From Paracoccaceae bacterium (GTDB lineage: Bacteria; Pseudomonadota; Alphaproteobacteria; Rhodobacterales; Rhodobacteraceae): DNA of 50,669 nucleotides. Location of the stretch: the NCBI GenBank assembly GCA_014879735.1, contig JACSRN010000122.1, positions 1-50,669 on the forward strand. Direction: 5' to 3'. A program made the position numbers and the translations under genes. Of this stretch, positions 26,796 through 50,669 are shown piece by piece (position 1 is the stretch's first letter; each line of letters starts with the position of its first letter). Under the pieces are notes generated by a model, which saw only the letters and a program-made list of their open reading frames with translations, was not told the origin of the DNA and did not search any database.

Positions 26796-27029
26796 ATGGC
26801 TGGCGACAAGCAAAACCTTCAGGACGCCTTTCTCAACCACGTCCGCAAGGCCAAGATTCCGGTGACGATCTTCCTCATCAACGGGGTAAAGCTGCAGGGT
26901 GTGATCACCTGGTTCGACAATTTCTGCGTCCTGCTGCGCCGGGACGGCCAGTCGCAGCTGGTGTACAAGCATGCGATATCAACCATCATGCCCGGCGCAC
27001 CCATCAACCTTTATGAAGGCGACGACTGA
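26796..27029 (+). CDS. hfq: RNA chaperone Hfq
   Basis: The product of 77 residues is a hexameric Sm-like protein that pairs small RNAs with mRNAs. It starts [20 protein letters not shown] with the QNLQD uridine-binding motif on the proximal face. It has the Sm1 strand set ([20 protein letters not shown]) and the Hfq-defining Sm2 motif VYKHAIST, and lacks the long enteric C-terminal tail, as usual in alphaproteobacteria. hflX follows at close range, the conserved hfq-hflX order. Confidence 0.98.
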
Positions 27030-43191: not shown

Positions 43192-44661
43192 ATGAAAAGA
43201 CCGTACAAGGGGCTGGAGATCGACGGCTTCACCCTGGGCGAGCAACTGCATGCCGGGGGGTTCGCCACCATCTGGGAGGCGACGAACCCGAAATACCGCA
43301 CCCCGCTGGTGATGAAGGTGCCGACCATCCTCGATGGCGACGACGGGCCCACCATCGTGGGTTTCGAGGTCGAGCAGATGATCATGCCCCGCCTGACCGG
43401 CCCGCATGTGCCGCGGGTCATGGGCACCGGCGATTTCGATGTGATGCCCTATATCGTCACGGAAAAGATCCGCGGCGGCTCGATGCTGACCACCTTCCGC
43501 AAGGCGCCACTGCCGCTGTCCGACCTGCTGGAGATCGCCGCGCGGCTGGTCGATGCGGTGGCCGATGTGCACCGGCAGGGGGTGATCCACCTCGATCTGA
43601 AGCCGGAGAATTTTCTTCAGCGTCCCACCGGCGAGATGGTGCTGATCGACTACGGCCTGTCGCGCCATGACCGCCTGCCCGACCTGCTGGCCGAGGAATT
43701 CCGCATCCCGATGGGCACCTATCCCTATATCGCGCCCGAACAATACCTGCGGGCCCGCAACGATCCGCGATCCGATCTCTTTGCGCTTGGCGCCATGATC
43801 TATGAACTTGCGGTCGGCCGGCCGCCCTTTGGCGTGCCGCAGCGGTTGAAGGGCGTGCGCCGCCGGCTGTGGCGCGATCCGGTGCCGCCGCGCGCCCTGC
43901 GCCCCGAATTGCCCGAATGGCTGCAGGAGATCGTCCTGCGCGCGCTGGAGGTCGATCCGCTGCGCCGCTATCAGACGGCGGCGCAGCTGGCCTTTGACCT
44001 TGCCCATCCCCAGCAGGTGAAACTGACCCGGCGCGCGACGAAGCTGAAACAGGACGGCTGGCTGCAGGTCTTCGACCGCTGGCGCGAGGTCCGCAGGATC
44101 AGGCAGTTCCAGGCACCCGATTCGGTGGCCTCGCAGATGGCCTCGGTCCCGATCATCTGCGTGGCGGTCGATACCGCGCCCGAGCATGAGGAACTGGCGC
44201 AGGTGCTGCATGCGGCGGTGAAGCGGATGCTGGTGATCGAGCCGGACGCCCGCGTCGCCTGTGTGAACGTGATCAAGACCGCCAGGATCGGACTGGACCA
44301 GATGACCGACGACCGGGGCAACAACCTGCATGTCCTGCGGCTGGTGCAATTGAAGCATTGGGCCACCGCCATCGACCTGCCCGAGGAACGGCTGACCTAT
44401 TCCGTGCTCGAAGGGCCGGATCCGGGGCAGGCCATCCTCGATTATGCCGCACAAAACCATGTGAGCCACATCATGATGGGCGCGCGCGGCCATTCCACCG
44501 CGCGGCGCTATCTCGGCTCGGTCTCGGCGCAGGTGGTGGCCGAGGCGCATTGCTCGGTGACGGTGATCCGCCAGACCGAAAAGCGGCCAGGCCCCGCCCA
44601 GGCGCCGGGCGAAGGCATGGCCACGAGTGGGAGAGAGGCGGCGGGCGAGGTGGCGGCCTGA
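43192..44661 (+). CDS. Ser/Thr protein kinase fused to a universal stress protein domain
   Basis: The product is 489 residues. Residues about 10-275 are a Hanks-type kinase: glycine loop LHAGGFATIWEA, ATP lysine Lys42 (VMKVP), catalytic loop HLDLKPEN (Asp135, Lys137, Asn140; the usual Arg of HRD is Leu), metal motif DYG (153-155) and GTYPYIAPEQ (175-184). Residues about 318-465 are a Usp domain with its ATP motif GARGHSTARRYLGSVSAQVV. There is no membrane helix, so the protein is soluble. The preceding phosphatase gene suggests a reversible phosphorylation pair. The Usp half may sense nucleotide or stress and control the kinase; this is inferred. Confidence 0.93.
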   Translation: MKRPYKGLEIDGFTLGEQLHAGGFATIWEATNPKYRTPLVMKVPTILDGDDGPTIVGFEVEQMIMPRLTGPHVPRVMGTGDFDVMPYIVTEKIRGGSMLTTFRKAPLPLSDLLEIAARLVDAVADVHRQGVIHLDLKPENFLQRPTGEMVLIDYGLSRHDRLPDLLAEEFRIPMGTYPYIAPEQYLRARNDPRSDLFALGAMIYELAVGRPPFGVPQRLKGVRRRLWRDPVPPRALRPELPEWLQEIVLRALEVDPLRRYQTAAQLAFDLAHPQQVKLTRRATKLKQDGWLQVFDRWREVRRIRQFQAPDSVASQMASVPIICVAVDTAPEHEELAQVLHAAVKRMLVIEPDARVACVNVIKTARIGLDQMTDDRGNNLHVLRLVQLKHWATAIDLPEERLTYSVLEGPDPGQAILDYAAQNHVSHIMMGARGHSTARRYLGSVSAQVVAEAHCSVTVIRQTEKRPGPAQAPGEGMATSGREAAGEVAA

Positions 44662-45031: not shown

Positions 45032-46849
45032 TCAGTCCTGATACCACCAGATATCCGGCTGGAACCCGAGCCAGTCGCCGTAAAGCGGCAGATGCGCCGG
45101 GAAGCGGAGTTCCTTTTTATGCGCGATCCGCGCTCGGTCCGAGTACCAGATGGGGATGACATATCGCCCGGCGGTCAGCACCCGGTCAAGCGCCTGCGCC
45201 ACCGCCAGCACCTCATCGCCGTCGCGCGCCGCCAGAAGTTCGCCGATCAGCGCGTCGGCGGCCGGCGATACCATGCCCATCCAGTTGCGCGTGCCGGGTT
45301 CCGTCGCCCCGGCCGACCCCCAATAGAGCGTCTGCTCATTGCCCGGCGACAGCGACAGCGAGCGGATGTAATGCGTCATGTCGAAATCGTAGTCGTTCGT
45401 CCGTGCCTTCATCTGCGCGCTGTCGAGTTTGGTGACGCTGGCCTCGATGCCCAGGGCCTTCAGCTCCTCGACATAGATCGAGGCGATGGCGACCATCTCG
45501 TCCTGGCCCGAGGTCAGGACAATCTCGAAGCGGAAGGGTTCGGCCGCGGCATTGCGCAGCACGCCGGCCGCGTCCACGGTCCAGCCGGCCTCTTCCAGCA
45601 GTCGTGTCGCCGCGCGAATGTTCTTGCGGTTGGTCGGGCTGCCATCGGAAACCGGCAGCGCATAGCCCTCGATCGTGCCGGGAAGAAGGCTGTCGGCAAA
45701 TGGCGCCAGCAGATCGAGCACCCGGCCCTCGGCCGGCGTGCCGGGCACCATCGCCAGCGGCGAGTTCGAGAAATAGGACTGGATGCGCGGCTGCACGCCG
45801 CCGGTCAGCGACTGGTTGATGAATTCGTAGTTGAAGGCCAGAATCAGCGCCTGACGCACCCGCCAGTCGGCGAAGATCGGGCGACGGGTGTTGAAGACCA
45901 GCCCCTCGATCCCCGACGGCCGGCGGTGCGGGATCTCCGATTTCACCACATCGCCGGCAGCGACCGCGGGGAAATCATAGTTTGTCGCCCATTTCGCCGG
46001 GTTGGTCTCGCGGTAGCTGGACAGGATCCCGGCCTTGAACGCCTCGAAATTCGCCTGGGCATTGGCGAAATATTCGTAGCGGATGGTGTCGAAATTCCAC
46101 AGGCCGCGGTTGATCGGCAGATCCTTGCCCCACCAGTCAGGGTTGCGACGATAGGTGATCGACACGCCGGGATCGACCTTGTCGACCACATAGGGGCCCG
46201 AGCCCACCGGCGCCTCGAAGCCCGAGGCCTCGAAATCCTTGCCCTGCCATTGCGCCTTCTGCAGCACCGGCCGCAACCCCAGGATCAGCGGCAATTCGCG
46301 ATCCGCGGTGTTGAAGGTAAAGCGGACGCTGCGCGGCCCGGTCTGCTCGGCCCCGGCCACCTTCGACCAGGCCGCGTGATAGCGCGGGTTGCCGTCCGTG
46401 GCCAGTTTCTCGAAGGACCACAGCACATCCTCGACCGTGACCGGGCTGCCATCCGAGAAGCGCGCACCCTCACGCAGGGTAAATTCCACGTAAGAGCGCG
46501 AATCATCGGTGTCGATCGACTCGGCCAGAAGGCCGTAAAGCGAGAATGGCTCGTCATAGCCGCGGGCCATCAGCGTCTCGACCGTAAAGCTTGCGATGCC
46601 GGCCGCCGGCTGCCCGGCGGTGACGAAGGGGTTCAGTGTGTCGAAGCTGCCGTTCTCGCTCAGAACGATGGTGCCCCCCTTGGGCGCATCGGCATTCGCC
46701 TGCGGCAGCGACACAAAATCCGGGGGCAGGGCGGGTTCGCCATACATAGCTATGCCGTGGCGCGGCTCGGCCAGCAGCGATCCGGGCAGGGCCATAATGC
46801 CGGCGCAGAAGGCGGCACTGGTGAGAGTCGCGAAAAAGTGACGGCGCAT
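45032..46849 (-). CDS. ABC transporter peptide-binding protein, family 5 (YejA-like)
   Basis: The product is 605 residues with a signal peptide (cleavage about residue 27, SLLAEP). It fits the large SBP_bac_5 proteins: FDTLNPFVTAG, YVEFTLREGARFSDGSPVTV, GSGPYVVDKVDPGVSITYRR and the C-terminal IPIWYSDRARIAHKKELRFP. Its closest named relatives are YejA-type oligopeptide or microcin-C-binding proteins. No permease or ATPase genes follow, so it is an orphan component here. The promoter must lie in the 290-bp gap to bdhA. Confidence 0.9.
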   Translation of the reverse strand: MRRHFFATLTSAAFCAGIMALPGSLLAEPRHGIAMYGEPALPPDFVSLPQANADAPKGGTIVLSENGSFDTLNPFVTAGQPAAGIASFTVETLMARGYDEPFSLYGLLAESIDTDDSRSYVEFTLREGARFSDGSPVTVEDVLWSFEKLATDGNPRYHAAWSKVAGAEQTGPRSVRFTFNTADRELPLILGLRPVLQKAQWQGKDFEASGFEAPVGSGPYVVDKVDPGVSITYRRNPDWWGKDLPINRGLWNFDTIRYEYFANAQANFEAFKAGILSSYRETNPAKWATNYDFPAVAAGDVVKSEIPHRRPSGIEGLVFNTRRPIFADWRVRQALILAFNYEFINQSLTGGVQPRIQSYFSNSPLAMVPGTPAEGRVLDLLAPFADSLLPGTIEGYALPVSDGSPTNRKNIRAATRLLEEAGWTVDAAGVLRNAAAEPFRFEIVLTSGQDEMVAIASIYVEELKALGIEASVTKLDSAQMKARTNDYDFDMTHYIRSLSLSPGNEQTLYWGSAGATEPGTRNWMGMVSPAADALIGELLAARDGDEVLAVAQALDRVLTAGRYVIPIWYSDRARIAHKKELRFPAHLPLYGDWLGFQPDIWWYQD

Positions 46850-46926
46850 TTCGGAAACGATCCCCGGTTTTCCCCATATCCGGCCGCGAGACTATGCCGG
46901 CACGGCAGGCATTTCAAACTTTTAGC

Positions 46927-46955
46927 TTGGAACGGGCAACGTTGAGGGTTATATA
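46927..46955 (+). promoter_or_regulatory. Sigma-70 promoter of the candidate small RNA
   Basis: TTGGAA (46927-46932) and TATATA (46950-46955) are separated by exactly 17 nt. This is the best consensus-like promoter I found in the window. It predicts a start near 46962. Confidence 0.55.
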
Positions 46956-46961
46956 GAACTT

Positions 46962-47036
46962 ACTGCTCGATAGGTTTCTTGCCTGTATGAAACCTGCCTC
47001 AACACTCAACGCCGGCCTTGCGCCGGCGTTTTTTTT
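46962..47036 (+). ncRNA. Candidate small RNA with hairpin and intrinsic terminator
   Basis: About 75 nt follow the promoter above. A 7-bp perfect hairpin AGGTTTC (46972-46978) / GAAACCT (46989-46995) has the loop TTGCCTGTAT. A single-stranded linker containing CCTCAACACTC comes next, and then a 9-bp terminator AACGCCGGC/GCCGGCGTT with a CTTGC loop and eight T residues. This is the form of a trans-acting, Hfq-compatible small RNA, but the unit could also be a leader that ends before bdhA (102 nt from its start). No protein frame of note occurs in it. Confidence 0.55.
47008..47036 (+). terminator. Strong intrinsic terminator
   Basis: AACGCCGGC (47008-47016) pairs with GCCGGCGTT (47022-47030) around CTTGC, followed by a T-run to 47036. 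It is the only textbook stem plus U-tract I found in the window, and it points rightward (+). Confidence 0.9.
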
Positions 47037-47072: not shown

Positions 47073-47101
47073 CTGGTGTTCGCGGCTGCAGCAGATATGA
47101 T
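47073..47101 (+). promoter_or_regulatory. Candidate promoter for bdhA
   Basis: CTGGTG (47073-47078) and TATGAT (47096-47101), 17 nt apart, lie after the terminator and 38 nt before the bdhA start. If real, bdhA is expressed independently of the small-RNA unit. Confidence 0.3.
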
Positions 47102-47138: not shown

Positions 47139-47912
47139 ATGGATCTGAAGGGCAAGCGGGCGGTCGTCACCGGATCGAACTCTGGCATAGGTCTCGGCGT
47201 GGCTGAGGAACTGGCCCGGGCCGGGGCCGAAGTCATCCTCAACAGCTTCACGAATCGCGAAGAGGATCACGCGCTTGCGAGCGGGCTTTCCGCCAGGTTC
47301 GGCGTGACCGTCCGCTATATCCAGGCCGATCTGTCGAAAGGCGAGGAGGCCCGCGGGCTGGTCGAGCAGGCGGGCGGCTGCGACATCCTTGTCAACAATG
47401 CCGGCATCCAGCATGTCGCCGCGGTCGAGGAGTTTCCGGTCGACCAGTGGAACCGCATCCTGGCGATCAACCTGTCCTCGGCCTTCCACACCATCGCCGT
47501 GGCGCTGCCGGGAATGCGGGCCCGCGGCTGGGGGCGCATCGTCAACATTGCTTCGGCCCATGGGCTGACGGCCAGCCCCTACAAATCGGCCTATGTCTCG
47601 GCCAAGCATGGCGTGGTCGGCCTGACCAAGACGGTCGGCCTTGAAACCGCAGGGCAGGGGATTACCTGCAATGCCGTCTGCCCCGGCTATGTGCTGACGC
47701 CGCTGGTCGAGGCGCAGATCCCCGACCAGATGAAGGTGCACGGGATGGACCGCGAGACGGTGATCCGCGAGGTCATGCTGCAGCGCCAGCCCTCGCGCCA
47801 GTTCGCCACCACCGAGCAACTGGGCGGCACGGTCGTCTGGCTGTGTTCCGACTATGCCGCGCAGGTGACGGGGACGACGATCTCGGTCGATGGCGGCTGG
47901 ACGGCGCTCTGA
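47139..47912 (+). CDS. bdhA: 3-hydroxybutyrate dehydrogenase
   Basis: The product of 257 residues is a classical short-chain dehydrogenase that oxidises D-3-hydroxybutyrate to acetoacetate with NAD, a step in polyhydroxybutyrate use. The cofactor motif is TGSNSGIGLG (11-20), NNAG follows beta-4, the catalytic Ser is in NIASAHGL, the Tyr-Lys pair in YKSAYVSAKHGVVG, and the C-terminal VTGTTISVDGGWTAL matches BdhA. The start at 47139 has GGAAAGG 8 nt upstream. The frame to 47076 has no such site. Confidence 0.94.
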   Translation: MDLKGKRAVVTGSNSGIGLGVAEELARAGAEVILNSFTNREEDHALASGLSARFGVTVRYIQADLSKGEEARGLVEQAGGCDILVNNAGIQHVAAVEEFPVDQWNRILAINLSSAFHTIAVALPGMRARGWGRIVNIASAHGLTASPYKSAYVSAKHGVVGLTKTVGLETAGQGITCNAVCPGYVLTPLVEAQIPDQMKVHGMDRETVIREVMLQRQPSRQFATTEQLGGTVVWLCSDYAAQVTGTTISVDGGWTAL

Positions 47913-50632: not shown

Positions 50633-50665
50633 CTGTCTCTTATACACATCTGACGCTGCCGACGA
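50633..50665. other. Illumina Nextera adapter at the contig end
   Basis: The bases from 50633 begin CTGTCTCTTATACACATCT and match the 33-nt reverse complement of the Nextera transposase i5-side adapter over its whole length; the last four bases are probably index sequence. The mosaic-end translation gives the well-known artefact peptides MCIRDR and MYKRQ, which open the minus-strand frames at 50649 and 50647. This is not genomic DNA. Confidence 0.97.
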
Positions 50666-50669
50666 CGGA

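Follow-up and report, generated by a model that had tools for sequence, protein, structure and literature searches.

The unit of 75 nt predicted at positions 46962–47036 of the window, the whole stretch of 50,669 nucleotides analysed here, probably encodes an ortholog of StsR, a stress sRNA of R. sphaeroides. We put the probability of this assignment at roughly 0.9, judging by the description of StsR and not by its letters. Sequence comparison gives strong support to a self-contained sRNA gene: conservation extends from promoter to terminator, the terminator stem changes in a compensating manner, and the unit persists at loci that have no adjacent bdhA. The first-pass annotation, citing a possible separate bdhA promoter at 47073–47101, had argued rightly for a separate gene and not just a bdhA leader. 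Its remark that it did not recognise the RNA as a known Rhodobacter small RNA needs correction, as the leader that the RNA matches, its length, its kind of promoter and its orphan nature all point to StsR. This kind of sRNA is already known and the gene described here is a new, unannotated member; new are the family-wide constancy of the RNA and its co-conservation with the dcw leader. The features of the locus are given in Table 1.

Table 1. Features of the sRNA locus and its flanking genes, in positions of the window.
Feature	Positions	Strand	Basis or detail
SBP_bac_5 (YejA-like) solute-binding protein gene	45032–46849	-	Pfam PF00496
Conserved box CAAACTTTTAGCTTGG	46915–46930	+	Reaches from upstream into the -35 element; ungapped stacking
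-35 element TTGGAA	46927–46932	+	Seen in the sequence
-10 element TATATA, spacer 17 nt	46950–46955	+	Seen in the sequence
sRNA gene (probable StsR ortholog), 75 nt, predicted ends	46962–47036	+	A46962 to T47036
Near-invariant 40-nt core	46962–47001	+	36 similarity-fetched loci
Hairpin 1	46971–46996	+	Stem 46971–46978/46989–46996, 10-nt loop 46979–46988; centroid fold
Predicted mraZ/dcw leader pairing region	46980–46999	+	sRNA nt 19–30 and 33–38; own-genome prediction
Unpaired stretch CCTCAACACTC	46997–47007	+	Centroid fold
Intrinsic terminator, 9-pair stem (47008–47030) then eight T	47008–47036	+	Centroid fold
3-hydroxybutyrate dehydrogenase gene (bdhA)	47139–47912	+	TIGR01963, 361.6 bits, over cut-off

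Conservation and distribution of the small RNA gene

The -35 and -10 elements, their spacing and the unit of about 75 nt are all where the first-pass annotation had placed them, and the unpaired stretch, the 9-bp terminator and the eight T residues are reproduced in the centroid fold. Two of its descriptions require adjustment. The hairpin is present, yet it comprises 8 pairs, one of them U-G, and not 7; the promoter elements exist and are conserved, yet "near-consensus" is too strong with respect to sigma-70, as TTGGAA and TATATA agree with that consensus at 8 of 12 positions by our own count, and a sigma-70 scan that demanded 9 of 12 found no promoter in 6 kb. When loci were stacked on the core, the T, T and G of the -35 element were conserved in 151, 137 and 145 of 151 loci and the T, A, T and A of the -10 element in 148, 149, 144 and 139 (among the matches listed). 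Most of these loci were fetched by an exact match to the core, and the promoter lies outside that pattern. The near fixation of TTG and TATA is better evidence for a promoter than likeness to sigma-70. Conservation extends further upstream: in the ungapped stacking the box CAAACTTTTAGCTTGG shows the consensus base at each position in 102 to 151 of the 151 distinct loci among the matches listed, with CAAACTTTTAG as the extra box kept upstream. The upstream box may be the mark of a further regulator or of an extended sigma contact.

The fold of the candidate sRNA, within which ACTGCTCGATAGGTTTCTTGCCTGTATGAAACCTGCCTCA lies, surpasses all 200 dinucleotide shuffles (z -3.57). The terminator taken alone is not beyond chance, since five terminator-type sites occur in 6 kb against 3.8 expected. 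Six of the nine pairs of the terminator stem have changed on both sides in a compensating fashion, and on four of five covariation measures none of 500 shuffles attained the observed value, the fifth being attained by 15 of 500. All slid controls scored lower than observed. The first stem is invariant in the aligned loci and, as it never varies, provides no evidence either way on its pairing. Hence the test set beforehand, compensatory changes in both stems, came out in favor of the terminator stem and was uninformative for the first.

The core itself hardly varies. In the alignment of 36 loci fetched by similarity and cut out with the motif present in all 36, 37 of the first 40 columns show no variation; columns 19 and 26 have one deviating row each, and three rows, shorter by one A, have a gap at column 40. 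The exact 40-nt core was also found in at least 118 stretches of named contigs. As these were fetched by the exact core they say nothing on its variation and were used for promoter and synteny alone, core conservation resting on the 36 similarity-fetched loci.

A search of relatives, as the first-pass annotation had suggested, was run by similarity and by covariance model and showed the sRNA to be nearly universal in the sampled family, by which we mean Rhodobacteraceae in the GTDB sense, judged from the named carriers. A query of 131 bases matched in 36 of 36 genomes, the window's own and those of its genus and family, with a worst E value of 1.8e-14, whereas the best match among 24 genomes of other families had an E value of 0.0039 and lay in the terminator part. 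At E 1e-5 or better the sRNA was present in 384 of 394 family genomes (393 genera), three of the 384 showing two matches, and in 345 of the 347 genomes with a completeness of 90% or more and a contamination of 5% or less; of the ten genomes without a match, eight are less than 90% complete. In a class-wide sample of 289 genomes the covariance model gave matches in 4, all four of the same family as the window, under strict filters by which weak matches may be lost. Among the matches listed, named carriers include Paracoccus, Ruegeria, Sulfitobacter, Leisingera, Jannaschia, Rhodovulum, Thioclava and Tabrizicola, as well as three Neomegalonema MAGs, a genus that NCBI assigns to another Rhodobacterales family. 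Four Paracoccus records of a plasmid collection contain the sRNA with no feature listed there. Carriage by viruses was considered and rejected, there being no core in viral contigs and no phage hit.

Complementarity to the mraZ leader and the identity of the RNA

Several short antisense matches of the 131-base query fell upstream of mraZ. When loci were fetched by the MraZ profile alone and the 900 bases before the MraZ domain were searched, 17 of the 18 family loci proved to contain a perfect complement of 12–18 nt to the sRNA core, as against none of the 12 outgroup loci; of the latter one (L169) is truncated where its contig ends. The complement includes CATACAGGC and faces the loop and the 3' arm of hairpin 1. 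Nine of the 17 positive loci belong to the window's own genus, and for two of them a match of 12 nt also arose in 1 of 300 shuffles; the family locus that lacks the site is from genome G020. A further set was drawn from the 30 best-scoring MraZ matches, one of which (L173) was left out as already counted. A site of at least 12 nt was present in 24 of the remaining 29, and all 29 had a match of 9–18 nt starting 450–551 nt before the MraZ domain, the five of 9–11 nt being beyond shuffles not clearly by length, only by position. Seven more leaders (L198–L201, L203, L204 and L206) have the site and were left uncounted, as they were fetched via the match or by a weak MraZ hit; the genome of one of them, L203 (G024), re-enters the count of 29 as L324.

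The window's own genome is absent from the 18-locus count because the MraZ profile missed its mraZ, which was found on contig 120 via the leader of a relative. There the site GGCAGCTTCATACAGGCA, at 2320–2337, is predicted to pair with sRNA nt 19–30 and 33–38 at -17.0 kcal/mol, compared with -7.2 (sd 2.9) for 100 shuffles, the lowest of which scored -16.4. Of five other leaders scored in this way four were well below their shuffles and one, L175, was no better (-7.6 versus -5.2, sd 2.6). In the window's genus the site is shortened and bulged, comprising 12 nt plus 6 pairs. An alignment of 24 leaders with the site, some of them chosen for having it, places CAGGTTTCATACAGGCA amid variable sequence, upstream of a conserved hairpin. 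By complementarity, the sRNA is thus predicted to base-pair with UpsM and the dcw 5' UTR.

A match on another contig of the same genome (C129, L196) was rejected as a target because of the orientation of the gene-like frame at that place, which is the wrong one for a target. In G020 (L185, L042) the sRNA core is unchanged and the mraZ leader is without the site, which makes it a place to seek other targets. Four viral contigs (L315–L318) carry the exact 18-nt leader site GCAGGTTTCATACAGGCA. The UpsM part of leaders L173–L206 has a highly conserved segment of its own, GATCCGGCGCGCGAGCGAGCAGACATC..CCCCCAGGTGGCGC. It also has a hairpin in which, judged by eye, the two arms change in concert.

UpsM of R. 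sphaeroides is a 5'-UTR-derived sRNA of the dcw cluster; according to a 2016 study, RNase E processing of UpsM was lost only in the absence of both RpoHI and RpoHII, from which an RNA under RpoHI/RpoHII control, then unknown, was predicted (PMC5089854). The RNA predicted there is StsR. In later work, StsR is described as a 72-nt RNA that depends on RpoHI/RpoHII, binds Hfq and shows strong induction during stationary phase; it pairs with both UpsM and the dcw leader, opens an RNase E site and has rpoE mRNA as a further target (PMC8307010, PMC11354728). Other papers call it an orphan sRNA (PMC8625941) and report that it responds when iron is limiting and when singlet oxygen exposure is prolonged (PMC3413700, PMC3688512), and a figure legend gives the core of RpoHI/HII promoters as -35 TTG and -12 TAT (PMC10673084).

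The candidate resembles StsR (formerly RSs0827) in each of the traits by which we file it as an ortholog, namely length, orphan position, promoter core and target. It is an orphan intergenic gene with its own promoter and terminator, of 75 nt by predicted ends versus 72. Its promoter agrees with the RpoHI/RpoHII core at the level of the motif, TTG and TATA being nearly fixed in the 151 loci among the matches listed, and the UpsM/dcw leader would be its target by complementarity. Two differences stand against these likenesses. One is the shortened and bulged leader site of the window's genus, and the other is rpoE: unlike published StsR, the candidate shows no conserved rpoE pairing in the relatives examined. 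In the 18 relatives' loci that could be placed, of 30, the longest exact complement to rpoE was 8 nt and pairing energies were mostly at shuffle level, with one z of -4.2; the window's own genome gave no RpoE match at E 1e-60.

These observations bear on the alternative that the gene encodes a conserved sRNA pairing with the dcw leader, and that StsR of R. sphaeroides is a different RNA of similar role. The rpoE trait, not seen in the relatives examined, speaks for it, as does a likeness to StsR that is one of description and not of letters: four spellings of the sRNA were not found in the literature text, no RpoE identical to that of R. sphaeroides was found among the 394 family genomes (best 78%), and a comparison of the RSs0827 neighbourhood by locus tag was not usable, as the only Rhodobacter row calls RSP_0829 lctB. 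On the other hand, the candidate agrees with StsR in length, in being an orphan, in its TTG/TAT promoter and in its complementarity to UpsM, and as nearly every sampled family genome has one match, a second RNA with the same properties is unlikely. We consider this alternative improbable and retain the StsR assignment. No statement on StsR beyond R. sphaeroides was found in the portions of the literature searched, and the founding NAR 2021 paper may contain one; in the sections seen of the sRNA lists of Ruegeria pomeroyi and Paracoccus denitrificans, none of the entries was tied to the candidate gene.

Gene neighbourhood and other RNA families

Synteny was examined among the matches listed, in the 98 of 118 loci that had at least 600 nt on each side, the other 20 being dropped. 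The yejA-like gene is adjacent to the sRNA in 92 of the 98 loci, and 80 have bdhA in the same orientation no more than 1.5 kb downstream, which is also the number with the order yejA-like gene, sRNA, bdhA. This frequent arrangement is what a leader or attenuator of bdhA would show, in which the terminator controls read-through and no trans-acting sRNA is made. Such a leader is nevertheless very unlikely. The sRNA is kept in 18 of the 98 loci without bdhA within 1.5 kb (in two of these bdhA lies further downstream and in 16 there is no bdhA match in the available piece, which in one case extends 662 nt downstream), and in six of the 98 with neither neighbour; this persistence argues against a bdhA leader. 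Counts taken with 1500 nt on both sides, again among the matches listed, were 68 of 72 for yejA, 59 for bdhA and 4 for neither. Moreover, the unit ends in a 9-pair stem and eight T, and the part that does not vary has its match in the dcw leader, at another place in the genome, a match that a bdhA leader would not need. A separate, trans-acting sRNA therefore remains our reading of the locus.

The Rfam search proposed by the first-pass annotation, run with Rfam 15, gave no match at gathering threshold anywhere in the window; there were below-threshold matches, none of which we take as membership. The model of mmgR/suhB (RF00519) scored 19.4 bits over its full length, the likeness presumably being the two-hairpin Hfq-type layout, with no shared core shown. 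SorX (RF02784) also scored 19.4 bits over the full model length, in an alignment that covers the hairpin, the CCUC stretch and the terminator; like StsR, to which we liken the candidate, it is a stress sRNA of R. sphaeroides. Membership in either of these alphaproteobacterial families can practically be dismissed, as the scores are far below the gathering scores of 46.6 for SorX and 41 for mmgR/suhB, and SorX is 3'-UTR-derived according to the title of a reference in PMC8307010, whereas the candidate is intergenic with a conserved promoter of its own.

Elsewhere in the window, the frame at 43192–44661 matches Ser/Thr kinase models at residues 13–278 and a universal-stress-protein model at 377–460, all below curated cut-offs, and is possibly a kinase-USP fusion as far as these matches indicate. 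The right end of the window, 50633–50669, is what we take to be Nextera-type adapter sequence. Contig C129 of the same genome starts with its reverse complement, and frames that run into adapter ends (MCIRDR, VYKRQ, SYTHL) are artefacts.

The constant core and a proposed mechanism

We propose that the locus would produce a trans-acting intergenic sRNA of roughly 75 nt with its own RpoH-type promoter and terminator. By analogy with R. sphaeroides, stress or stationary phase would lead RpoH-type sigma factors to switch on the sRNA, which with Hfq would pair with UpsM and the dcw leader; RNase E would then cleave the leader, dcw expression would fall and division would slow. An RpoH encoded in the window's own genome scores above its curated threshold. 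An Hfq-like frame was found by motif at about 26796–27029 on the plus strand, and the first-pass annotation also names hfq in the window.

As to the order of contacts, the 10-nt loop UUGCCUGUAU may serve as a toehold on AUACAGGCAA of the leader, after which, in most genera, CAGGUUUC of the leader would displace the sRNA's own 5' arm AGGUUUC, a motif that CAGGUUUC contains in most genera seen. Loop-first contact followed by strand displacement is the likely course suggested by the paired sequences, and it would explain why both arms of the first stem are frozen without compensatory change. As the leader match is shorter and bulged in the window's genus, displacement there would be partial, with fewer pairs.

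To our knowledge, base-pairing sRNAs do not usually keep their core so constant across hundreds of genera. Strand displacement does not explain the frozen first ten bases, and since the UpsM site would not account for the whole 40-nt core, we tentatively suggest a second contact for these ten. In 42 of 46 leaders a 7-nt complement to sRNA nt 2–8, CGAGCAG, follows the first site at a distance of 26–48 nt (L185, which has no first site, was dropped from the 47 loci), where by our own arithmetic about 0.1 such matches would be expected by chance over the whole core. We came upon this putative clamp post hoc, and energy calculations do not favor it, a complemented control having scored the same; with suggestive counts and no energetic support, we do not adopt the two-site clamp on the leader as more than a candidate. 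Our broader proposal is accordingly a tentative one, held at somewhat less than even confidence: StsR may be a family-wide core regulator and not a phototroph stress RNA, coupling RpoH-type stress to the dcw leader, and a second contact would keep the RNA's first 10 nt (ACUGCUCGAU) fixed, either as a bipartite clamp with CGAGCAG or through other conserved targets.

The alignment and the covariance model are ready for a new Rfam family, and the constancy of the core raises the question of which contacts fix it. An sRNA studied in one phototroph may thus become a testable family-wide link from stress sigma factors to cell division, and the control of division by an sRNA would be open to study in Paracoccus, Ruegeria, Sulfitobacter and others with the same core.
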